Below, piece by piece: positions 3,475-19,910 of a DNA stretch of 64,000 bases. This DNA comes from Aurantibacillus circumpalustris (lineage in GTDB: Bacteria; Bacteroidota; Bacteroidia; B-17B0; Aurantibacillaceae). The DNA lies in NCBI RefSeq assembly GCF_029625215.1, contig NZ_CP121197.1:2914001-2978000 (forward strand). The letters are read 5' to 3'. The stretch's first letter is position 1. The number at the start of each line of letters is the position of its first letter. A model generated the notes under the pieces. The model saw only the letters and a program-made list of their open reading frames with translations. It made no database searches and had not been told where the DNA came from. Made by a program: the position numbers and the translations under genes.

Positions 3475-3885
3475 TTAATTTACAGTTAGCACAATTGTTT
3501 TTTGTGTGATATTTCCGTCTCTGTCAGTAATAGAGAAAATCCAATTTTCAGTTCCTGCCTGATCTCTAGCGGTAATATCGATATCTTTACTGAATGAATC
3601 GTACTCACTTTTTACGAGTTCATAATTGTAAAAGGTTGTAGGGGAGCCGGCACCATCAAAAGTATAAGAGACGTTGAAAGTCTTAAGTTCATCTTCTGTT
3701 TTTGTGGCTTTTATTCCAACGGTTATTTTTTCTTTTTTATTTAGCGTTTTATCACCAGAAGTGTATGAACCACCTGTTTTAAATTCAACATTTGGTTTTA
3801 CGCGTTCGTCTTCAGATTTTTTACACGAAAAGTTTAACAGGACTAGTCCTAAGCATAACAGGGTAATTGTGATTTGATTTTTCAT
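3475..3885 (-). CDS. Small lipoprotein downstream of a TonB-dependent receptor
   Basis: A 136-residue exported protein. The N-terminus MKNQITITLLCLGLVLLNFSC has a hydrophobic core and Cys21 followed by KK, typical of Bacteroidota lipoproteins. The mature part is about 110 residues of alternating beta-type sequence, ending in DRDGNITQKTIVLTVN, which suggests a single Ig-like or similar beta-sandwich. It begins only 17 bp after the TonB receptor gene, so the two are very likely co-transcribed. In this setting it could be a surface lipoprotein that helps the receptor capture its ligand, as SusD-like proteins do, but it is far too small to be SusD and shows no similarity to it. Specific function unknown. 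Confidence 0.75.
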   Translation of the reverse strand: MKNQITITLLCLGLVLLNFSCKKSEDERVKPNVEFKTGGSYTSGDKTLNKKEKITVGIKATKTEDELKTFNVSYTFDGAGSPTTFYNYELVKSEYDSFSKDIDITARDQAGTENWIFSITDRDGNITQKTIVLTVN

Positions 3886-3902
3886 AGATAGATTTTGTTG
3901 TT

Positions 3903-6158
3903 TTAATTAAATTGAAATTTTAGATTAAGATTGATTGATCTCCCAATATTATAAATGCCGAAGTATTTGAATCGTGATAAATGATCGTAATATACTTCGT
4001 TCAAAATATTATTACAGGATAGAGAAATTAAAAATTTATTTTTTTCGTTTGAAAGTTCTGTTCCTATGCTTGCATTTACAAGTTGATAAGACTTCGTTTT
4101 TGTTTCGAACTGATTGGGTGAGTTCTGATTAAATACATAGATATACACTAAACTAACAAAGGTGTTTTTAAATTTTTTTAGCTGATCTTTTTGTATCCTC
4201 AGTTCGTTGCTTATTTTTTGTGCGGGTATAAATGGCAGGTACTCATGGTCTTTTGTTTCACCCACAATACCAGAATAACTGGAGTTTAGTTGAAGCATTT
4301 TTAAACCTGGAGGATGTAATTTTATTCCCGCTTCAACACCTTGAATAGTGGCGTCTTTTTGAACATACTCGTAAATTTTAAAACCAAAATAATCTGCGCT
4401 ATCAGGCTGCAGATAAATATAATTCAGAAATTTATTTACATAGGCAGAAGCAAAAAGGTTCATCCATTTATTATAGTACTCTACATAGACATCAGCACAG
4501 AGATTTTGTTCAATTTTTAAATTGACATTTCCAATTTCATAACGCAAACTCCCTTCATGTAAACCATTAGAAGAAAGTTCGGCTAGATTCGGTCCTCTGT
4601 AACCTGTAGTGAAATTCAACTTTAAATTAAACCGTTTACGATCAAAGGCACTTATACCAAGGGCTCCGTTTACTGTATTATAGGTTTTGTTTACTGGAAC
4701 AACTTCAGAACCGGGATTGCTGAGACTACCGCTATTCAAATTATTGGTTGGTAGTGTATGAATATTTTTTAAGTCATACCTCAATCCACCTTCAGCTACT
4801 AGAAACTTTGCTTTCTTTTTTAAGTAAGCGAAAATAGAAAACTCTCCAAGATTTGCATCGGGAACAATGGAACGTGATCCTAAATTTTTATTGCTTTGAA
4901 ACTGATCTTGCGAACCTATTGAAAGTTCAGTACTCGGATTAAAGTTTTTGATCCATAAAAACATCGCACTATAAGTTTGAAGTAACATGTTTAAACTTAT
5001 TCCTCCTGAGCCTTCTTGTTCCTGTCGGTTATTGATGTGAGCACCAATGTTTATTTTGAATTTTGAAGACCTCAGAAAAAAAGTGTTTTGCGAGGTCAAC
5101 ATATTCATTAAAACACTGTGATGCGGTCTTTCAAAACTTCTGGAAAAGCGATTATCTTGCTTGTCGTACAATTGATAAGCATCCATCAAAAAACCAAAAT
5201 TATTTTGTGAAATAAGGTAGTTGGTCTCGCTCACCCAATGTTTGCGCTTAAAACCTAAGAATGCTTTCGCTAGTGTTCCTCCAAAGCGTGAATTTAAAAT
5301 CCTTGTGCCGTTCCCATCGCTGTAATCCGCGTGAGATTCTGTGCCAATGCGGATTCCCCAATTTGTTTTGTTAGTTGTTTTTCTAATCCCTGCATCAATA
5401 GCATAGCCGTATGTATTTGAAAAAACCTGAGTCGAAAAATCGGAAATAGTTTTATTCAATGGAGCAGCCTTTTCATTTATAATATTTAGCACTCCGCCCA
5501 TTGCTTCACTACCGTAAAAAAGAGATGAAGCTCCTTTTATTATTTCGATACGATCTACACCAACATCCGAGAGACCAAGTCCATGTTCATCTTGCCATTG
5601 CTGATTGTCAAAGCGCATCCCGAGTAAAACAGTTTGAATTCTATTACCAAATAAACCACGAATAACTGGTTTGGATATTCCTGCACCGGTGCTCAACTGA
5701 TTTACACCGGGCAATTTGGCAATTCCATCACTTAAATTCATCGCACCCATTTCACGCATTGTTTTGGAGTCGAGAACATCAATGCTATTAGAGGTCTCAG
5801 ATCGTTTGTCCTGCTGGTTGCCATACACGACAATCTCATCTAATTTATTAATACCGGGTTTTAAATAAATTATTTTACCGCTCACGGAATCATTAATAAA
5901 TACAACCGTGCTATACGTTCTGAATTCAAACTTATCAACTTGTAAAAAATAGTAACCCTTAGGTATTTTATCTATTCGGAATTCTCCATTTTTATCAGTG
6001 CGCGTTTCAATAGCAAGTTCCGGAATGTAAATAGCAGCAGAGCTCAAGAGACTGCTGTCAGACTCCGATTTTATACTACCATTAAAAGTAGTCTGCCCGA
6101 AATTGATGTACGGACAAATGACAAGTGCCAGTAAAAATATTACTATGTTGCGAAGCAT
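3903..6158 (-). CDS. TonB-dependent outer-membrane receptor (receptor A)
   Basis: An outer-membrane active transporter energised by TonB. The start chosen is the ATG at 6158, which gives the signal peptide MLRNIVIFLLALVICPYINFGQ; the longer frame to 6227 would put 23 charged residues in front of it. After the signal comes a carboxypeptidase-like regulatory domain (residues ~25-110), then a plug with LSDGIAKLPGVNQLSTGAG and VDRIEIIKGASSLFYGSEAMGG, then a beta-barrel ending in LNLKFQFN. About 751 residues, normal for the family. The plug wording resembles receptors for metals or small chelates, but the ligand cannot be deduced. It is preceded by a small membrane-protein gene and followed by a lipoprotein gene, and a paralogous arrangement lies directly upstream. 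Confidence 0.9.
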   Translation of the reverse strand: MLRNIVIFLLALVICPYINFGQTTFNGSIKSESDSSLLSSAAIYIPELAIETRTDKNGEFRIDKIPKGYYFLQVDKFEFRTYSTVVFINDSVSGKIIYLKPGINKLDEIVVYGNQQDKRSETSNSIDVLDSKTMREMGAMNLSDGIAKLPGVNQLSTGAGISKPVIRGLFGNRIQTVLLGMRFDNQQWQDEHGLGLSDVGVDRIEIIKGASSLFYGSEAMGGVLNIINEKAAPLNKTISDFSTQVFSNTYGYAIDAGIRKTTNKTNWGIRIGTESHADYSDGNGTRILNSRFGGTLAKAFLGFKRKHWVSETNYLISQNNFGFLMDAYQLYDKQDNRFSRSFERPHHSVLMNMLTSQNTFFLRSSKFKINIGAHINNRQEQEGSGGISLNMLLQTYSAMFLWIKNFNPSTELSIGSQDQFQSNKNLGSRSIVPDANLGEFSIFAYLKKKAKFLVAEGGLRYDLKNIHTLPTNNLNSGSLSNPGSEVVPVNKTYNTVNGALGISAFDRKRFNLKLNFTTGYRGPNLAELSSNGLHEGSLRYEIGNVNLKIEQNLCADVYVEYYNKWMNLFASAYVNKFLNYIYLQPDSADYFGFKIYEYVQKDATIQGVEAGIKLHPPGLKMLQLNSSYSGIVGETKDHEYLPFIPAQKISNELRIQKDQLKKFKNTFVSLVYIYVFNQNSPNQFETKTKSYQLVNASIGTELSNEKNKFLISLSCNNILNEVYYDHLSRFKYFGIYNIGRSINLNLKFQFN

Positions 6159-6304
6159 TGTTGCATCATCTGGTTTCGAGTGTTTTAAGATTTTACAAAC
6201 GAAAAGAGTTTCGTTCACGAAGATCAAACACAGGCAAAACCAGTTCTAAATTGATAGAAATGTTTAAATAAATAATTTACCCCAAGATGAATTAAGGCAA
6301 GAGA

Positions 6305-6844
6305 TTAGAAATACAAGGACAGTATTTCTGGCGGTTTTATGGTTTTTAAAACATAGACCAGAGGGCTAAAAAGAATTTTAGCTTCTATGTAAGTTATCTT
6401 TTTGTACTCAACATTGTTTTGGGCTAGCGTATTTGGGGCAAGGTAGTTAAGATTGAGGATTTGTTTCAATAGAGTAGTGCCATCTTTCTGAATATCTTCA
6501 TTTAAAGAAAAATATGTTTGAAATAATGAGTTTTCGGCCTTGTCTTCAATAGCATAAACGATGGCTCCAGTAGCTGTTTTTATTATTTTCACCACTTCAT
6601 GATAAACTCCATTCACAACAAGTTCTTTATTATTTTTCTCCCATTGAAAGCCATTTTTGTTTTGAAAAAGATCATTTTTTTCAAACGAAAACTTTATAAC
6701 TTCTGCAGATTTGTTTTCTAATAACTGTTGACGAAATTCTACTTTTTTTATATGAACATAGGATACAAAGAATAAAAACCTGAATGAAATAAAACAGGTT
6801 AATACAATGAGAAAAAATGGTAAAAAGTAATGGTTCTTCTTCAT
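6305..6844 (-). CDS. Small single-helix membrane protein, paralogue of the protein at 9393-9923
   Basis: I do not recognise a named family. The 179-residue product has one N-terminal transmembrane helix (residues ~8-30, FLPFFLIVLTCFISFRFLFFVSY written as hydrophobic core) and a soluble, probably periplasmic, part. It is clearly homologous to the product at 9393-9923: shared RFLFF.SY, DLFQ.KNG..W..NNKEL, GVYHEV, EDK.EN.LF and a C-terminal KPP. Both genes sit immediately upstream of a TonB-dependent receptor on the same strand, so the pair behaves as a conserved partner of the receptors. Small proteins ending in a PP motif accompany many metal-related receptors in Bacteroidota, but I see none of the Cys motifs of that group. 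A near-leaderless promoter lies just upstream. Confidence 0.75.
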   Translation of the reverse strand: MKKNHYFLPFFLIVLTCFISFRFLFFVSYVHIKKVEFRQQLLENKSAEVIKFSFEKNDLFQNKNGFQWEKNNKELVVNGVYHEVVKIIKTATGAIVYAIEDKAENSLFQTYFSLNEDIQKDGTTLLKQILNLNYLAPNTLAQNNVEYKKITYIEAKILFSPLVYVLKTIKPPEILSLYF

Positions 6845-6850
6845 TCATAC

Positions 6851-6880
6851 CAAAACTAGTGCTTTTTTTGGACTTTAGAA
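6851..6880 (-). promoter_or_regulatory. Bacteroidota-type promoter for the 6844-to-3475 unit
   Basis: On the minus strand TTC-N19-TAGTTTTG: the -7 box matches TAnnTTTG exactly and the -33 box differs by one base from TTG. The -7 box ends 7 bases before the ATG at 6844, so the transcript would be leaderless or nearly so. Confidence 0.6.
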
Positions 6881-6910
6881 AGTAGCTTGATAGTTAAACC
6901 AAGCTACTTT
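6879..6910. terminator. Inverted repeat, probable terminator of receptor B gene
   Basis: Perfect 11-bp arms AAAGTAGCTTG / CAAGCTACTTT with a 10-base loop, 12 bp beyond the stop of the receptor gene at 6922. The T-run is weak on the minus strand, so termination may be partial. One arm overlaps the -33 region of the next promoter. Confidence 0.55.
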
Positions 6911-6921
6911 TCTACTATTTT

Positions 6922-9339
6922 TTAAAATTTATACCTCAAACTCACAATAAAATTTCGTCCGGGAGCATTAATACCGCTGGCAAAAACTCTGTACCTGTTA
7001 TCTGTAATGTTTTCACAAGACGCATTTACTCTTAATTTCTTCGTGAGATTATAACCTAATCGAATGTTCAAGGTAAACCATCCCGGCATGTAACCAGATT
7101 TTGTATTGGCACTATACTGAGCATTGTCTTCGCCTGAAGCACTATAATCTGCAGTTGATTTTTTGCCATTGTACCGCACAAAAAATTCAGCGTCTGCATT
7201 TTTCTCTTTAAAAATGATGCTTGTTTGACCAAAAACCGGTGGTATATGATCTAAGGCAACAACGGTATCCTTCCTTACATCCATGTACCGGCCGTAGGTG
7301 TAGTTGATGATACTTTTAAAGGATACATTTTTATTAAAATCAAATTGCACTCCAGCGCTTATTCCATAAATGTAAGCACGGTCTTTATTTTGAACCGCCT
7401 GCACTTTTCGGTTTGTGCCGTCAATTAGAATAGTGTCCTGATTGTTGAACGTGTAGTCTGCCGTTACCAAAGCATTTTCAAGAATGGTGTAAAACGCTGT
7501 GAAATCAAACTTATATTTTTTATCGAATATTTTACTGATCGTCATTTCGAAATTGTAAGCGTATTCCGGTTTTAGTTTTGTGTTTGGAACAATCAAAATA
7601 TTACTAGTGCTTTCAAATACTTTACTCATATCATCGATATTGGGTGTTCTGAATCCCGTGTTGGCGAGCAGACTTATTTTATAGTCGTTCTCTTCTTTCC
7701 AAGTAAAACCGAGGCTACCGGTAAGTGCTTGGTTGTTTTGTTTCGCTGAAGTAAAAGGGAATTTTATGAAAGTGGTATCTTTGAATTTTGATTCCAAGGA
7801 ATTTGCAGTAGCACGAATTCCGTCTGTGATTACAAAATTCTCACTGACTTCCCAAGAATGCGATAGATAAATGCCGGCTGTGTTCATACTGTTTCCACCA
7901 TCGCCATAGCGGGTAGCGGCAGGATTTACCACGTCGGTTGTAATATCTAAACTCTCTGCGGTGGAAGTAACTGCGTTTGATTGCACTTCGAGTCCATAAC
8001 GCAATTCGTGTTTTTCTTTTACGCGTTTGTATGCATCCAAATTAAGAGAAAGTACAGTAACGTCTTCCATTTGTGTGACGCGATTTTTATTTTGAAAACG
8101 ACGTGAAATCCTATCTTGATCTATTTTTTGATAAGCAGCGATTATTTTAAAATTATCGCTGAGCGCAGTTGATTTGTCAAAATTGAAAGAGTAGGAGGCA
8201 AGTAAGCGTTTTTGCGGACCGTAATTCCATTCTGCGAAACGCATGTTGGCTCCCACCATTTCGGTTAATCTATCGTAGCGAGGAATATCAGAAGATTGAC
8301 TGAGCTGAAAATTAAGTCCGTGTACGATGTGTTCTCCAGACTTTATATTAAAACGTTGCATAAAATCTAACTGTGAATAAGCACTTCCAACCTGTAGATT
8401 TGAGTTTGGATTTCTTACTGTGCTATCACGGTTATCAAAACGTTTTGCATAAAAATTTCTATCCCAGTTTTTTGGTGAACCATTTAGTTTTGTGTTTCCA
8501 CTTAGTAAATCACCAAAATTTGAATAAGTCACATTTGTAATCGAAGCAATTTTCTTCCAGCCAAGATTTAGATCGATATGCCCTGTCTGCTCTTTATTTG
8601 CTGATGAGTAACGTACAAACGCATTTGTTTTTACAAGCATTTTATCTGTGGAGCTAAATTCAGCTTTCTTGGTATAAAAATGCATAACGCCGCCAAGTGC
8701 GTCGCTACCATATATAGTAGAGGCAGGACCAAAAACAACTTCTGTTCTTTCTAACATATTGGCGTCAAGAGAAATAATATCTTGTAAATGTCCACCACGG
8801 TATATGGCATTATTCATGCGGATTCCGTCAACTACAATGAGTACTTTGTTCGCTTCAAAACCTCTCAAAACAGGACTTCCACCACCCATCTGACTTTTTT
8901 GAACGAACACCGCGCCGGTGTTTTGTAAAAGGTCAGCGCTGGTTTGTTGATTTACAAACTCGATTTCTTTTTGTTGAATCACATCTATTTTATAGGGCAC
9001 ATCAATTTTATGTTCTTGCTGACGGTTGGCTGACAAAACAATTTCGTCAAGAGTAACGGTTTTAAATGTTAAGCGAATATCAACGGAATTTTCTGTTTTT
9101 TCTTTTTCATTAAGAAGGTAAATAGAATAGGAGGGATGGTAAAGGTAAATGTCTCCACTTTTTTCAAGTTCACTGATATCGGCTTTTCCGGAGTTGTCTG
9201 AACTAACTGATTTGTTGTTTTTGTCTGTAATAATAACGTTAACTAACTTTTCGCGTGAAGAGTTATCGCTAATGCTAAGCGTTTGCGTTCTTGCTGTAAT
9301 GCAAGACAATAAAATAAAAGAAAGTAAAATCTTTTTCAT
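6922..9339 (-). CDS. TonB-dependent outer-membrane receptor (receptor B)
   Basis: An 805-residue outer-membrane transporter. A signal peptide (MKKILLSFILLSCITARTQ) is followed by a short CarboxypepD-like/SusC-type N-terminal domain (~20-95) and a complete plug: DVIQQKEIEFVNQQTSADLL, QKSQMGGGSPVLRG, ANKVLIVVDGIRMNNAIYRG and GPASTIYGSDALGGVMHFYT. The barrel ends in the aromatic terminus RNFIVSLRYKF. The plug motifs are those of the haem/haemoglobin-receptor-like group of Bacteroidota, which suggests haem or a similar ligand, but there is no HmuY-like protein or haem uptake gene in view. It follows its small membrane partner (stop at 9393) by 53 bp and shares that gene's promoter. Only about 20-25% similarity by eye to receptor A, so the two modules are old paralogues or convergent pairings. 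Confidence 0.9.
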   Translation of the reverse strand: MKKILLSFILLSCITARTQTLSISDNSSREKLVNVIITDKNNKSVSSDNSGKADISELEKSGDIYLYHPSYSIYLLNEKEKTENSVDIRLTFKTVTLDEIVLSANRQQEHKIDVPYKIDVIQQKEIEFVNQQTSADLLQNTGAVFVQKSQMGGGSPVLRGFEANKVLIVVDGIRMNNAIYRGGHLQDIISLDANMLERTEVVFGPASTIYGSDALGGVMHFYTKKAEFSSTDKMLVKTNAFVRYSSANKEQTGHIDLNLGWKKIASITNVTYSNFGDLLSGNTKLNGSPKNWDRNFYAKRFDNRDSTVRNPNSNLQVGSAYSQLDFMQRFNIKSGEHIVHGLNFQLSQSSDIPRYDRLTEMVGANMRFAEWNYGPQKRLLASYSFNFDKSTALSDNFKIIAAYQKIDQDRISRRFQNKNRVTQMEDVTVLSLNLDAYKRVKEKHELRYGLEVQSNAVTSTAESLDITTDVVNPAATRYGDGGNSMNTAGIYLSHSWEVSENFVITDGIRATANSLESKFKDTTFIKFPFTSAKQNNQALTGSLGFTWKEENDYKISLLANTGFRTPNIDDMSKVFESTSNILIVPNTKLKPEYAYNFEMTISKIFDKKYKFDFTAFYTILENALVTADYTFNNQDTILIDGTNRKVQAVQNKDRAYIYGISAGVQFDFNKNVSFKSIINYTYGRYMDVRKDTVVALDHIPPVFGQTSIIFKEKNADAEFFVRYNGKKSTADYSASGEDNAQYSANTKSGYMPGWFTLNIRLGYNLTKKLRVNASCENITDNRYRVFASGINAPGRNFIVSLRYKF

Positions 9340-9392
9340 TTTTCATAGTTTAAGTAAATAGTAATGGAATGTTGAGGCAAAGGCCTCGGAAA

Positions 9393-9923
9393 CTAAATGA
9401 AAAAGGGCTTTGGTGGTTTGATGATTTCTGAATGAAAATCACATAAGATTAATTGATGAAAAACGCTAAGAGTTTTAAAATAAGAAACAATCTCAGTGAG
9501 TTTAATTGGTGCTTGATCGAGGAAGATAAGTTGACAGAGGATTTTAATAAAATCAGTGACGAATCCAGTTTTACTTTTATCAGACGAAAAAAAAGAAAAG
9601 AATAAACGATTTTCTTCTTTATCCTCAAGAAGAGACACTAGGACGTTATTACCCATTTGTTTAATGCAAATGACTTCATGATAAACGCCATCAATTAAAA
9701 GTTCTTTATTGTTCTCTTTCCAAACTAAACCGTTTTTATCTTGAAAGAGGTCAGTTGCGCTTACTTCAATCGTTCTAGCTTCTTTGAAGCTATGTTGAAT
9801 AAGCTCACTTCTAAAAGCAGTTTTTTGAGTAGCGATGTAAGAAATAAAAAAGAGGAAGCGCCCTGCAATTAACAAGGTGATTAAAATAAGGAAAAAAGAA
9901 AATAAAGTAGTTTTAAGTTTCAT
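9393..9923 (-). CDS. Small single-helix membrane protein upstream of receptor B
   Basis: A 176-residue protein with an N-terminal transmembrane helix (residues ~6-30) and a soluble domain that probably faces the periplasm. It is the paralogue of the product at 6305-6844; the core match is DLFQDKNGLVWKENNKELL and GVYHEV, with EDKEENRLFF downstream and KPPKP at the C-terminus. The same position before a TonB receptor gene in both cases argues for a functional link such as assembly, regulation or ligand handling. No domain name can be given. The gene has the best promoter in the window directly upstream. Confidence is high that it is a real gene and low for any role. Confidence 0.75.
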   Translation of the reverse strand: MKLKTTLFSFFLILITLLIAGRFLFFISYIATQKTAFRSELIQHSFKEARTIEVSATDLFQDKNGLVWKENNKELLIDGVYHEVICIKQMGNNVLVSLLEDKEENRLFFSFFSSDKSKTGFVTDFIKILCQLIFLDQAPIKLTEIVSYFKTLSVFHQLILCDFHSEIIKPPKPFFI

Positions 9924-9936
9924 AACTCAACTATAA

Positions 9937-9966
9937 CAAATATAAGATGTTTTACTTTATTTCCAA
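9937..9966 (-). promoter_or_regulatory. Consensus Bacteroidota promoter for the 9923-to-6922 unit
   Basis: On the minus strand TTG-N19-TATATTTG, an exact match to the Bacteroidota vegetative promoter in both boxes and spacing. The -7 box ends 13 bases before the ATG at 9923, giving a leader of only a few bases. Confidence 0.8.
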
Positions 9967-14568: not shown

Positions 14569-17500
14569 TTATTTTAATAACGCAATATTGCCTGCTTTTT
14601 CGTAAAGATTTCCTTCTGCATCTTTGTATTTGATTTTGAATACATAAGTATCTTCTTTCATTGCCTCGCCTTTATTTTCTAGTGATCCGTCCCATCCCTT
14701 GGTTATGTCTTTTGATTGATAAACCAAATGACCCCAGCGATCGAATATTTGCATTTCAAAATATTTTGTATCCAATCCTTCTTTAGTGAAAACAGGAGCA
14801 AACACATCATTTAAGCCATCAAAATTTGGTGAAAAGGAATTTGGAATAAACACATTGAAGTTGTTTTTTACTTCAATCGTTTTGGTGATTTCATCTTTAC
14901 ATCCAAAAGCAGACGTCGCGGTGAGTGTTATCTGGTATTTTCCAAGCGTTGAAAATTCTACACTTGGTGCTAGTTCATTTGATTTTAATAGGTTTTTAAT
15001 TTCCCAGTAATAACTATTGTTTTCCAAGGCCTTACTTAAATTACTTAGTTGAATACGCGGTTCTGAAATATAAATTTCTTCTGGAAATGTAAAATTGGCT
15101 TTTGGAGAATCATGAATTTCTAGATCAGCTATTTTTACAGGTAGTGCTTCACATCCAATATCGTCTTTGTAATTATACTGTACTTGGTAAATACCTGGAT
15201 TCATAAATAAATGAACTGCACTCAGCCCTTTTGTAACTTCAGATCCATCGTTAAAACTCCAGGTGCCGTCGCCCGTATTTACACTCGATGTGTAAAATTC
15301 AAATTCTGCAGGTGCACAACTACTTTTTCCGTTTTTGGTAACTTTTATGATAGGATTATTTCTTACCTCGATTGTAACTTCTGTTTTATCTGGACAAAGA
15401 TCACGTGTAGGTTCAGAAAAGGTTGTGTAAATTAAGGTTGTTTTATTGTCAGGAATTGCTTGGTCAGGATGAAACATGTTTCCTTGTAGTCCGCTTTGTC
15501 CTGCATCTTTCATGCTCCATTCACCGCCAGTATTTAATACGTAACTATTTAAATTGATGGCGTAACTTGTTTTGCAAAAAGGACCAGGTTTTTTATCTAG
15601 ACTTGATGAAATAAATTTTTCAACTTGTATCATCATTTTAGCATAAGCTATACAAGGGCCAGAAGTAATGCTATAAGTCACTTGATTATTTCCTATTAAA
15701 GCAGAAGCTGGATTAAATTTACCACTATTAGAAACTGCATTTGCATCTGATCCACCAAAAACACCGCCAATAGGACTTACTTGTAATTGCACTGGTAAAC
15801 TTGATGTGCAGTAAGGTCCGGCTTTTGTTAAAGATGGAACAGCTAAAGAAAACACTTTGATAGTTACGAGAGCTTCATCGGGACATAAACCGCTTGGTGA
15901 GGAAGCTGTGTGATAGGTAAGAATGAAATTTCCAGAACCAGTTGTGTTTGGATTAAAGTTTGTACCCGTAATACCCGCTCCGCCCCATGTACCTTGGTTA
16001 TTCGCTGTAAAAGGCGTAAGATTCATAACAGGACTATTATTACACAGATCTGGTAGTTTACTTGTTATAGTTGCTGGAACAAAAGCTTCAACACTAATTT
16101 GTTTGGTTTGTTGTCTGTTGCAGATCGCTGTTCCAATAACATATTTTACAGCATTGTTTCCAACAGAACTTAGTGATGGTGTAAACACCCCGCCGGATGA
16201 TAGGTAAGAAGTTCCCGTCCAATTTCCAGTCAAGGGCGTTACTTGTAGTTGAATAGGATTAGCATTGTTACAGATAGGTGCAACTTGTGTAATACTTGGC
16301 ATTGGTGGATTTAGTAAAGAAACCGCTATCGTTTTGGTATCAGGACACAAGGTTGCATTCGGCGCTGACGGGTGTTTATAACTTAATGTGTAAACATTTG
16401 TTGTCAATCCCGAAGGAAAAAATGAATTGGTTAACACACCAGTTGTGTCTTTCCATGTTCCCGCAGTGTTTTGTACAATACTCATTAAATTAACAACGCC
16501 ACTATTATAACAGAGATTACTCAAGCTATTAGTTAATGTAGCGGGAATAAATTGAGAAACGTTTAAAAGACTGGTTTTGATATTAAGACATGGACCCACA
16601 TTAACAGAATAGGTAACCGTAAGGTTAGGAACAGTAATATTAGAGGGCGTTACCGCTCCGTTGCTATTTATACCGCTACTTGGAAACCAACTACCACCTG
16701 ATGGTGTAACAGTCATTGTAAACGGTAGTTTGTTTGAGCAAAATTCTGGTACTTCTATTATTGTTGGAGTAATTGTTTTTGTTACTGCTACATTTATTAA
16801 TGTTGTTGATGGACATGCCAGTGGATTTGGAAAAGATGGAACGTTATAACTTATTGGATAAGTATTGGTGTTCAGTGTAGTTGGCACGAATTGATTATTC
16901 GAAACACCTTGCCCAGTCCAGCTTCCATTAACTGTGTATTGCACAATGTTCATTAAATTAAAAGGAGAATTTGTAACGCATAAAGGCGGAACAGCTGATG
17001 TGAGTGCAGCAGTGTTGTATTGTGAAACGTTGTATGTTCCTGATTTTGTCGCTACGCAGGTATTGATAGAAATGGAATATACAAAACTGTTTGTTCCAAT
17101 AGCGATGTTAGAATGGGAAGGTGTGATGAGTCCACTTGTTTGACTTACAGGACTGTTTGCTCCCGTGTAAGAAGTGCTATATGTTCCACCCGGTGCACTG
17201 GTAAGAATTTGAACTGGCGAAGAATTATTACATAGTTCTGGGATAGCCAGTATTATTGGAGTAGCAGGATTAGCTGCTGTAATTGAAATTGTTTTTGTTA
17301 CCGGACAATTAACAGTGCTTGGAGTAACCACAACCGTATAAACAAGTGTACTTTGAGTTCCCGCCGCAAGAGTAGGGGAAATAATTGTTGACATAAAACT
17401 ACCATTGTTACCTGCAAGCCACGTGGTTGGTGACCAAGAATAAGAGTACTGCGTTAATGATGGGTTGTTTGTAAATGTAACGCCCGCAGCAATGCTATTT

Positions 17501-19641
17501 CCAGGGCATAAAGTTGATGGGTTTGGACTTAAAGTATAATTAAAAGTAAATGCATTCACATTAAAAGTTGTGCCATAGTGGCACGATCCGTCGAATGAAT
17601 GCACGCTGTATGTTCCAGCAGATAAAGCACTTAAAGGAAGTGAAGTTTGATTTGAGGGACCTGAACTAATGTTGTAAACAGGTGTGTTGCCAATTGAATT
17701 TATATTAAAAGTATTTAAACCTGCTGGTCCACCAAGCGCGGGAATTAAATTAATAACTGCAGTACCATTGTTGCCGCCAGGGCAAATCCAAGGAATACTG
17801 TTTGCTGATAAAAATCCTGGATTAGTAGCTGCTAAAGTGTATCTAACGGAATCGAGACAACCGAAAGAACTCAGATAAGTCAGCGTTACAACACTTCCTG
17901 TTGTTGGATTTGTAATAGTTAAACTTGACGAGGTACCCCCAAGATTTGACGGAATTGCCGTACTCCCATTGTACCATTGAAAGTTGGTGCCACCACCCGT
18001 TACAATGTAAGCTATGTTACCACAGAATGGTTTTAATTGATTAATAACTCCGGGTGGTTGCACACCAATGGTAACCGTAGTAATGGCGGATCCGCAACCC
18101 GCAGAACCGAATCCTGTTATTCCTATTGAGTATATTCCTGCAGCCAAGCCTGTTACTATGGAAGAAGTACCCACTACACTGTTGGTTGAATTGAGCCATG
18201 TGTAATTGTAACCCGTTCCACTACCATTTCCAATAACAGTGGCACTTCCACTAGCACCACCTGCGCATGACGATCCCGAAGCAATACCGCTAATGTTTAC
18301 AGTGGTATAGGACAGGGTATTTACTGATACATATTGACAGCCTGATGGAGAAGTTAAATAAACTGAATACGTTAAACCTGGAGTCGGAGAGTTAATTGAT
18401 AGTGTTTGTAAAGTAGCTTGCGATACTGGAATAACGGGAGTAAATGGCGGAGCAACCCAAGAATAGGTTGCATAACCTGTTGGAGCACTAATTTGTGCAG
18501 AACCGCTTCCGGCACAAAAACTTACAGGCCCACTAATTACTGTAACGGATCCCAATGGTGGAGTACAGGTTGAACAAAGTAAAGTGCCGCCGCATTTTGA
18601 ATCAAAATAAAGCGAACCGTGGTGCGCTCCTCCGTTGCAGTCACCGTTCGTTATTCTTATAGTAACGCATGATCCAATATAGGGTGTTAAGTCAATGTAC
18701 TTTAATTGCCAGTTTGTCCACGAAACGCCATTTGGCGAGAATGAGTATCCCGTAGCACCATTCATACAGCTGCTGCCCGGAGGAGTTAAACTTATAGATG
18801 AACACGCTAAAGGTGCACCTGAACAATCAAACATGTTAATCGTAAAAAAGGGTTGGTCGCAGCATTGGTGTCCTGAACCATCCCAGGAACCTGCATATGC
18901 AAATTGAAAAAGAGAATTAGATGTTGTTACAGGAAAAGTTGTACTTAATCGTGTGGAAACAAATCCTGGTGTTGTGTTATTTAACACGGCGACACGATTT
19001 CCTCCAAGTGGTGAGTTAAGAATATTTCCAATGTACGGATGCCCAAGAATAGGCGTTGTTACAATAGAAAACTCTGGACTTCCACCTACCCAAACTGCAT
19101 TTGTCGGTGTTCCGCAGGCAAGTTGTTTGCCGTTTGTATTCGTAGTTTCAAGAGACCAACCAGTAATAGCGTTTAATGAATTGTATGTTCCCGCTGGAGT
19201 GGCTTCAAAATCTTCGTTTACACAAGGTGCTACATTTATAAAATTTTGACCGCCAATTTGTTTTGTATTTACTATAGGTTGACTTGCAACTATTGGCTTA
19301 GCCGCGTATTCCCCTAGTTTATATTTTTGATCAATATAATCTCTTTTTCTAAAAGCCATTACGCTTATAAATTCCTGACCATAATAGAGACGTGAAATAA
19401 GTTCGGCTTTAACAGCCGCTTCATCAAAGCCTTTTAAGGAATCTCCGTAATAATTACGGTAGTCTTTCAATGTACTTGTAGAAAGATAATTTTGTGTGTT
19501 TATATAAGTGGCTTTAGGATCTGTTGGATCAATTTTAGACTCGAATGATGAGCTGGCGTTATTCGTTTTACTCGTTTGCGCATTTAAATTTGAAATTAAA
19601 ATACAAACTACGAGCGACAGGGTTTTTAGTGGGTTTTTCAT
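14569..19641 (-). CDS. Giant T9SS-secreted repeat protein with type B (CHU_C) sorting domain
   Basis: A ~1,690-residue cell-surface or secreted protein. The ATG at 19641 starts a proper signal peptide (MKNPLKTLSLVVCILISNLNAQ); the frame upstream to 19704 would bury it. The N-terminal ~130 residues are followed by a lectin-like or MAM-like region around FEATPAGTYNS...ITGWSLE and then Ser/Thr/Asn/Gly-rich Ig-like modules. Residues ~900-1400 contain at least four related repeats with VPELCNNSSP, APICNNANP, LPDLCNNSP and AGPYCTSSLP. A PKD-like domain (GIYQVQYNYKDDIGC) and KTIEVKN precede the C-terminal sorting domain: FIPNSFSPNFDGLNDVF, IFDRWGHLVYQS and GWDG. Such proteins are carried across the outer membrane by T9SS and often act as adhesins or gliding factors. 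A TACCTTTA box (19659-19666) lies 21 bp from a TTG. Confidence 0.9.
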   Translation of the reverse strand: MKNPLKTLSLVVCILISNLNAQTSKTNNASSSFESKIDPTDPKATYINTQNYLSTSTLKDYRNYYGDSLKGFDEAAVKAELISRLYYGQEFISVMAFRKRDYIDQKYKLGEYAAKPIVASQPIVNTKQIGGQNFINVAPCVNEDFEATPAGTYNSLNAITGWSLETTNTNGKQLACGTPTNAVWVGGSPEFSIVTTPILGHPYIGNILNSPLGGNRVAVLNNTTPGFVSTRLSTTFPVTTSNSLFQFAYAGSWDGSGHQCCDQPFFTINMFDCSGAPLACSSISLTPPGSSCMNGATGYSFSPNGVSWTNWQLKYIDLTPYIGSCVTIRITNGDCNGGAHHGSLYFDSKCGGTLLCSTCTPPLGSVTVISGPVSFCAGSGSAQISAPTGYATYSWVAPPFTPVIPVSQATLQTLSINSPTPGLTYSVYLTSPSGCQYVSVNTLSYTTVNISGIASGSSCAGGASGSATVIGNGSGTGYNYTWLNSTNSVVGTSSIVTGLAAGIYSIGITGFGSAGCGSAITTVTIGVQPPGVINQLKPFCGNIAYIVTGGGTNFQWYNGSTAIPSNLGGTSSSLTITNPTTGSVVTLTYLSSFGCLDSVRYTLAATNPGFLSANSIPWICPGGNNGTAVINLIPALGGPAGLNTFNINSIGNTPVYNISSGPSNQTSLPLSALSAGTYSVHSFDGSCHYGTTFNVNAFTFNYTLSPNPSTLCPGNSIAAGVTFTNNPSLTQYSYSWSPTTWLAGNNGSFMSTIISPTLAAGTQSTLVYTVVVTPSTVNCPVTKTISITAANPATPIILAIPELCNNSSPVQILTSAPGGTYSTSYTGANSPVSQTSGLITPSHSNIAIGTNSFVYSISINTCVATKSGTYNVSQYNTAALTSAVPPLCVTNSPFNLMNIVQYTVNGSWTGQGVSNNQFVPTTLNTNTYPISYNVPSFPNPLACPSTTLINVAVTKTITPTIIEVPEFCSNKLPFTMTVTPSGGSWFPSSGINSNGAVTPSNITVPNLTVTYSVNVGPCLNIKTSLLNVSQFIPATLTNSLSNLCYNSGVVNLMSIVQNTAGTWKDTTGVLTNSFFPSGLTTNVYTLSYKHPSAPNATLCPDTKTIAVSLLNPPMPSITQVAPICNNANPIQLQVTPLTGNWTGTSYLSSGGVFTPSLSSVGNNAVKYVIGTAICNRQQTKQISVEAFVPATITSKLPDLCNNSPVMNLTPFTANNQGTWGGAGITGTNFNPNTTGSGNFILTYHTASSPSGLCPDEALVTIKVFSLAVPSLTKAGPYCTSSLPVQLQVSPIGGVFGGSDANAVSNSGKFNPASALIGNNQVTYSITSGPCIAYAKMMIQVEKFISSSLDKKPGPFCKTSYAINLNSYVLNTGGEWSMKDAGQSGLQGNMFHPDQAIPDNKTTLIYTTFSEPTRDLCPDKTEVTIEVRNNPIIKVTKNGKSSCAPAEFEFYTSSVNTGDGTWSFNDGSEVTKGLSAVHLFMNPGIYQVQYNYKDDIGCEALPVKIADLEIHDSPKANFTFPEEIYISEPRIQLSNLSKALENNSYYWEIKNLLKSNELAPSVEFSTLGKYQITLTATSAFGCKDEITKTIEVKNNFNVFIPNSFSPNFDGLNDVFAPVFTKEGLDTKYFEMQIFDRWGHLVYQSKDITKGWDGSLENKGEAMKEDTYVFKIKYKDAEGNLYEKAGNIALLK

Positions 19642-19910
19642 GGTACTTTTATTTTTGATAAAGGTACGGCTTGAAAGCCCCAACTGACAAGCCTTTTCAC
19701 TCATCCAATTCTATGACCCGCTAAATCAATTTTTGTTCACTCAATGGTTTGATAGTTTGGCTTAGTTAAATTGAGGTTGTGATTTATTAGTCAATAATGT
19801 AATAAATATTAAACGATCAAATTTAATTTTGAAGAAGGGAGAACAATAGGCAAAATGTAATTTGTTTTTTTGTTCATTTATACCGTTAAAATTACTGAAG
19901 TTGATAGTTG

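Follow-up and report, generated by a model that had tools for sequence, protein, structure and literature searches.

What does a small gene do that stands, twice in succession, directly ahead of a TonB-dependent receptor gene? The question is raised by a stretch of 64,000 nucleotides (nt) from Aurantibacillus circumpalustris (contig NZ_CP121197.1, positions 2,914,001 to 2,978,000; hereafter the window, whose own numbering is used throughout), in which two such pairs follow each other on the minus strand. TonB-dependent receptors form the chief route of nutrient entry in Bacteroidota, and for many of them the mode of regulation is, to our knowledge, unknown. Our results suggest that the small gene is probably a nascent-chain regulatory leader, that is, an upstream open reading frame (uORF) whose product combines a membrane-anchored domain with a C-terminal proline arrest site and would thereby control the receptor. 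We refer to its two copies in the window as leader 1 and leader 2.

Both small open reading frames (ORFs) are intact, at 9393-9923 (leader 1, 176 amino acids [aa]) and 6305-6844 (leader 2, 179 aa), and the order along the minus strand is leader 1 (9923-9393), receptor 1 (9339-6922), leader 2 (6844-6305), receptor 2 (6158-3903), and a lipoprotein-like gene (3885-3475). An earlier note on this DNA had described a duplicated module in which the small proteins are closer to each other than the receptors that they precede, and both parts of that description are borne out. Specifically, the leaders are 37% identical over 175 aligned residues (E 2e-31), with the motifs named in the note visible in the alignment, whereas the receptors align only piecemeal, the best piece covering about 130 residues of the plug at 30% identity. 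A search of the 4.6-Mb genome of the same organism at E <= 10 turned up only these two copies of the small gene. Both receptors are clearly TonB-dependent, given that the Pfam Plug and beta-barrel models score far over their cut-offs. For receptor 1 (805 aa), the nearest NCBIfam model is that of a heme/hemoglobin receptor (TIGR01785, 201 bits against a cut-off of 317), while receptor 2 reaches 117 bits with ZnuD (cut-off 950) and 107 bits with TIGR01785, both under the cut-off. Receptor 2, which carries a CarboxypepD_reg-like N-terminal domain, more likely starts at the ATG at 6158 than at the TTG at 6227, because the former gives a protein of 751 aa, compared with 752 aa in its relatives.

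To place these genes in a wider context, a family of 87 distinct members, all from Bacteroidota, was collected in two sets. For the first, leader 1 was searched against 100 relatives, with matches in 40 genomes (E <= 0.01); 36 fetched regions and the window then yielded 40 small ORFs by iterative profile, five matches of the first search that lay inside long frames (665-1122 aa) not being fetched. For the second, a core-only profile (leader 1 residues 28-114, without the C-terminus) was run against 296 genomes of the phylum, of which 48 matched at E <= 0.001, the window's own included. Fifty ORFs passed in 48 regions of other genomes, and 48 were kept after the removal of L148, a false positive (its match lies at its C-terminal end, it has no Pro-Pro, and no receptor was called next to it), and of L166, which is truncated by a contig end. 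One gene occurs in both sets (L090 = L157), and the duplicate, L157, is still counted in the 88-member C-terminus set, the promoter-motif sets of 83 and 74, and the folding set of 74 spacers. Spacer analyses used only leaders with a receptor start at most 600 nt downstream, and five members (L066, L144, L057, L085, and L147) stand outside the folding, start-pairing, promoter, C>G, orthologue/tree, and receptor-cluster sets, L144 since its called receptor start overlaps the leader.

Across this family, 84 of the 85 distinct assessable members are followed, within one or two genes and on the same strand, by a receptor. The first set contributes 38 of 39 assessable members (38 of 40 overall, L057 being at a contig edge), and the second contributes 47 of 47 (47 of 48 overall, L147 being at a contig edge). 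As the organism's own 4.6-Mb genome holds 23 plug domains, chance adjacency of a leader and a receptor should be rare. Hence, the tie to TonB receptors anticipated in the earlier note is found throughout the profile-collected homologues, which do not occur mainly away from receptors. Scans with Pfam and NCBIfam gave weak, scattered matches and no model that fits the family; the best were OGG_N, matched by five of the 87 core segments (E 1e-4), and a single NCBIfam model in a single member (E 5e-5). Searches of viral contigs and plasmids returned no relative. A first scan of genome contigs (query P0002) had no match, and a second (A4) gave 11 loci, all titled metagenome-assembled genomes and most on contigs already in the set.

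The feature that most strongly marks the family lies at its C-terminus. A Pro-Pro pair falls within the last 25 residues of all 87 members and within the last 14 residues of 85, compared with 4 of 532 other ORFs of at least 120 aa in the same regions and none of the 191 that measure 120-260 aa, these background ORFs being mechanical calls rather than curated genes. For the second set (48 rows), the recruiting profile contained no C-terminus at all. With the preceding residue included, the motif is PPP in 51 members, KPP in 29, HPP in 3, and VPP, SPP, RPP, and QPP in one each; 28 of the 29 KPP members belong to the first set, mostly from the window's genus. In the window, the invariant pair, which we propose as the arrest site, is encoded on the minus strand at 9411-9416 in leader 1 (P170-P171, in IKPP followed by five residues) and at 6329-6334 in leader 2 (P171-P172, in IKPP followed by seven). 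Further, the distance from an invariant Asp (D101 of leader 1) to the Pro-Pro is narrowly kept, at 70-82 residues (mean 73.7, standard deviation 2.7, n = 87), and mean pairwise identity is 11% in this linker and 25% in the core. A ribosome-tunnel ruler would be expected to produce just such a linker, one that keeps its length but little of its sequence and closes with an invariant Pro-Pro.

The predicted layout of the remainder of the protein is also that of an anchored domain. AlphaFold2, run on the family alignment, places a helix at residues 2-44, a compact beta domain at 50-100 (predicted local distance difference test score 96-98), helices up to residue 134, and, at 135-176, a low-confidence tail that lacks secondary structure; a core-only model from the 87 sequences agrees with this layout. 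A putative N-terminal membrane segment (17-residue hydropathy of at least 1.6) is present in 71 of the 87 members; the other 16, which are 132-168 aa long as called, probably lack it through the choice of start. E74 and D101 are invariant, and E104 is kept in 84 of 87, making these three residues candidates for ligand binding on grounds of conservation. In the 87 members, no column is at least 70% His or Cys, and a CXXC occurs in only one. Foldseek searches of the PDB returned no match at E <= 0.001, the lowest value being 0.034 for the whole model and 0.14 for the core, and the best Z from VIA-align was 4.3 for both. Sequence profiles against solved structures gave no convincing relative, with one match at E 0.49 in one search and none at E <= 1 in another. 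We claim the predicted fold as neither known nor new.

If the small protein is a leader, it is one that serves many receptors. Those downstream of 82 leaders fall into six clusters (47, 14, 9, 7, 3, and 2 members, linked at >=30% identity over >=400 aa), in keeping with the view of the receptors as exchangeable partners. Five receptors from three clusters were scanned, and the best NCBIfam model was PqqU in four and a hemoglobin/transferrin/lactoferrin model in the fifth, all below cut-off. Among 37 leaders placed in a tree, those that precede receptors of the 751-aa type do not form one clade, with at least two changes forced by well-supported branches (just 10 of the 34 inner branches being well supported), while the receptors of that type group together on a long branch. 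On this basis, one leader family appears to be shared between unrelated receptors. The leader is a real protein gene under purifying selection, as judged from a low ratio of nonsynonymous to synonymous substitution rates (dN/dS), which was 0.06-0.28 in the 13 computable cases among 15 leader pairs more than 55% identical. Between orthologous modules, the leader evolves faster than its receptor: module 1 and its counterpart in L055 have leaders 41% and receptors 76% identical, module 2 and its counterpart in L065 have leaders 46% and receptors 66% identical, and the median tip branch is 1.16 for leaders and 0.23 for receptors. The suggestion that the small protein is the conserved part of the module, thus, holds between the two paralogous modules of the window but is reversed between orthologues.

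The position of promoters points to joint expression. The -7 box of Bacteroidota promoters has the consensus TAnnTTTG. Of 83 leaders, 29 have it in the interval from -100 to +15 relative to their start, compared with a mean of 7.5 and a maximum of 18 in 200 shuffles that preserve base composition only, and it is densest about 15 nt ahead of the start. Inside leaders, the box is about as common as expected (21 of 83, against 19.3), and only one of 74 leader-receptor spacers has it (4.5 expected); two thirds of the leaders have no such box ahead of them. Both leaders in the window carry one on the minus strand. As read from the sequence, module 1 has a Bacteroidota-type promoter at 9937-9966, with a TTG (9966-9964) 19 nt up from TATATTTG (9944-9937), and the box of module 2, TAGTTTTG (6858-6851), lies 14 nt ahead of leader 2. 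Because the box is enriched before the leader and rare in the spacer, the receptor appears to depend on the leader's promoter.

Hence, we propose the following course of events. The leader would be transcribed first, from a promoter close to its start codon, and the nascent chain would insert into the inner membrane by its N-terminal helix, after which the small beta domain would fold outside the membrane with the C-terminal tail, some 40 residues long, still inside the ribosome tunnel. The ribosome would then pause at the C-terminal (P/K)PP; with a pause at residue 171, the tail would roughly fill the exit tunnel, and the beta domain would be just out. The persistence of the pause may be set by the state of the nascent domain, be it ligand bound, folded, or pulled by translocation, and its outcome would set the amount of receptor mRNA or protein. 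A family that serves six or more receptor clusters is unlikely to be tuned to one substrate; the domain probably responds to a cue that they have in common, for example the state of the envelope or iron or haem status.

For the link from the pause to the receptor, we weakly favour Rho-dependent termination, as suggested by an excess of C over G. Over the final 120 nt of the leader, C exceeds G in 69 of 73 members, compared with 53 of 198 control gene ends; the corresponding figures are 49 of 73 and 102 of 198 for the spacers and 70 of 82 and 114 of 469 for the sequence 5' of the Pro-Pro codons. The spacers fold modestly better than their shuffles (mean z -1.03, n = 74; 17 of 74 below -2), and that between leader 2 and receptor 2 (6159-6304, minus strand) has a z of -3.71; pairing of positions 5-35 past the leader stop is not significantly raised (41 of 72, p 0.14).

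A second small family in the same genome invites comparison. Three receptors of this genome have an xPP-ended ORF upstream, namely, the two in the window and one at G000:C1:2246263. The latter is preceded by two tandem His/Cys-rich ORFs with hydrophobic N-termini, unlike the window leaders in sequence, that end in LLRGPPVGQ and LRGPPACA (L149:5465-5815 and 5889-6206, plus strand, at about 2245464-2246205 of G000:C1); the pair is flanked by a gene that is YidC-like by eye and by this third TonB-dependent receptor. A search with the nearer ORF, which covered 40 genomes of the genus, returned 17 matches from 15 of them, and RGPP stands in the last 20 residues of all 17 family members (the query included in each count). 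In two members (L188 and L194), the neighbouring gene presumably encodes a COG0523/CobW-like GTPase, a call that we take from the motif GFLGAGKTSLLN, and such a neighbour would fit a zinc-type cue for the RGPP family. The window's leader family conforms to this layout but carries another motif. Near G000:C1:3185608, a further Cys-rich ORF (L018:297-701, plus strand; HYCGGELE..., CCGDDD), with NTPPSR in its C-terminal part, lies upstream of genes for a heavy-metal-associated (HMA) protein and a receptor and is possibly another leader-like gene.

Several observations weigh against the regulatory leader. Most receptors of the window's own genome lack one: a start could be placed at 20 of the 23 plug loci, and an xPP-ended small ORF is next upstream in 3 of these 20. 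The RGPP family also heads other genes, the ORF that follows it being, by eye, of the same receptor type in 6 of 17 cases, a CobW-like GTPase in 2, and other or unresolved in 9. These two findings are the reason that we hold the leader reading slightly less firmly than we otherwise would. The sole assessable exception to the receptor linkage (L085:4318-7316, plus strand) has its receptor upstream of the leader and an accessory lipoprotein downstream, and a lipoprotein-like gene of 141-143 aa stands between leader and receptor in eight operons, all relatives of module 2 (L059, L062, L063, L065, L066, L072, L075, and L080). None of the 87 leaders carries RAPP or RGPP, and EF-P normally resolves a pause at plain PPP. 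The start region of the receptor is paired no more than in shuffles (0.506 against 0.505, p 0.72, n = 72), so that a start-blocking hairpin is not supported as the general mechanism. The C>G bubble is explicable by amino-acid choice, because four-fold sites hardly differ between the linker (C 0.211, G 0.163) and control gene ends (C 0.211, G 0.187). Finally, a folded domain with conserved E74, D101, and E104 suits an ordinary periplasmic function as well.

The last of these points leads to a different role, in which the small protein is a stable inner-membrane protein whose periplasmic domain partners the receptor, for example as a receptor-specific TonB/ExbD helper or as a periplasmic carrier or reductase acting on the imported ligand, with the prolines forming a protein contact. 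The near-complete receptor linkage, the confidently predicted domain, the two invariant acidic residues and the nearly invariant third, and a dN/dS below 0.3 are all consistent with such a partner, but one leader family heads six receptor clusters, the leader evolves faster than the receptors, the linker is kept in length and scarcely in sequence, and the genus has another small family, unlike it in sequence, whose RGPP sits at the same position. What does not vary is the C-terminal Pro-Pro, at a near-fixed distance from the core, as in arrest leaders, and we therefore regard a partner role as unlikely and not as the best reading of the small protein.

Two further explanations retain the leader as a translated gene upstream of the receptor. 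Translational coupling alone, whereby ribosomes that finish the leader go on to translate the receptor with neither sensing nor arrest, agrees with the common strand, with spacers that are mostly below 120 nt, and with the promoter motif in only one spacer of 74. We nevertheless consider it very improbable: it needs no invariant Pro-Pro, narrow spacing, or conserved domain, and four second-set members (L142, L163, L165, and L167) have spacers as long as 182-339 nt. The other is a variant of the leader reading itself, namely, a SecM/VemP-like monitor of protein export or outer-membrane biogenesis, instead of a nutrient, that alters receptor output when export falters. It draws on the N-terminal hydrophobic helix joined to a C-terminal arrest-like motif, on the many receptors served by one family, and on Bacteroidota uORFs ahead of secDF and secA that are described as ending in proline (PMC10987492). 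SecM, MifM, and VemP, however, are described as controlling export genes (PMC9973294), whereas receptors lie downstream here, and a folded domain under conservation points to a ligand or a partner, which leaves a pure export monitor quite unlikely.

Some neighbouring features bear on the architecture of the modules. A terminator-like hairpin with a weak T tail (9 bp, 10-nt loop; 6881-6908, minus strand), read from the sequence, lies between them, and it was not listed by a terminator scan whose loop range was only 3-8. Module 2 of the window lacks the intervening 141-143-aa gene, its spacer being just 146 nt, and closes with the accessory lipoprotein-like gene (3475-3885, minus strand, 136 aa), which has a DUF4625 match below cut-off; genes that resemble it follow the same receptor type in relatives. 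Multiple modules also occur elsewhere: in genome G388 (L156:3903-16600), some 13 kb hold three leader-receptor modules, of which one lies on the opposite strand to the other two; their receptors measure 713, 800, and 716 aa, and an extra receptor-like ORF (705 aa) is found alongside. Farther along the window, 14569-19704 (minus strand) encodes a secreted-looking repeat protein of 1711 aa, the C-terminus of which presumably resembles C-terminal regions of the gliding-motility or type IX secretion system kind.

With the nascent-chain leader as the preferred reading of the small gene, a broader proposition can be put forward tentatively, as a possibility more than an expectation. The family may represent Bacteroidota-wide nascent-chain sensors in which a folded extracytoplasmic domain is followed, some 70 residues behind (the length of tunnel plus translocon), by a PPP/KPP arrest site, and which are wired interchangeably to several families of haem-, siderophore-, or PqqU-like receptors, such that an envelope cue would set receptor supply co-translationally, in parallel to the distinct RGPP leaders of the same genomes. 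If the leader reading is true, translation arrest of exported leaders would be a widespread, modular control of receptor levels across the whole phylum, Pro-Pro arrest leaders would reach beyond RAPP/RGPP motifs and copper, and the 87 genes would provide a ready list for testing. As far as we have searched, novelty extends to the family itself, to its motif and predicted folded domain, and to its modular use across the phylum; no article on it was found among the open-access literature that surfaced, and a mention elsewhere is possible.

How, then, does the family compare with known arrest leaders? In general, it shares with them an N-terminal membrane or export segment and a C-terminal motif at a constrained distance. 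SecM, MifM, and VemP are secreted or membrane-bound and bear an arrest site at the C-terminus, upstream of the gene to be controlled (PMC9973294), an arrangement that the leader family shares with a putative site. Their arrest sequences differ from that of the leader family. The RAPP/RGPP peptides (ApcA, ApdA, ApdP, and RAPP-like uORFs) are likewise small membrane or secreted proteins with a near-C-terminal Pro-Pro upstream of regulated genes; their motifs are described as especially robust in arrest, and uORFs of this type as standing before TonB-dependent receptors across Gram-negative bacteria (PMC12992588). The leader family differs in having neither motif in any of its 87 members, so a survey for these two motifs would miss it. 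CutF, which precedes cutO in Rhodobacter, is described as an exported nascent protein whose C-terminal proline-rich motif is needed for the next gene (PMC9973294), but CutF has a CxxxC and a hairpin over the next start, whereas the leader family has no general start-blocking hairpin.

The remaining comparison is with CruR, the DUF2946 uORF of the BfrG/CrtA system in Bordetella. CruR is reported to control a TonB-dependent transporter via a C-terminal RAPP, to keep the spacing from its copper motif to RAPP within one or two residues, and to have a Rho terminator marked by a C>G bubble in leader and spacer (PMC9426467), and it arrests in vitro (PMC12992588). Like CruR, the leader family heads receptor operons, carries a C-terminal Pro-Pro at a near-fixed distance from a candidate sensing motif, and shows a C>G bubble in leader and spacer. 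Unlike CruR, it has no DUF2946 (PF11162) match at E <= 0.01 in the 40 full-length members or the 87 cores, a CXXC in only 1 of 87, an xPP rather than RAPP, a predicted folded beta domain, and Bacteroidota as hosts. By analogy, the leader family reads as working like CruR and CutF without belonging to their family, and it is most likely a new family of arrest-peptide leaders, of a kind already known from CruR.

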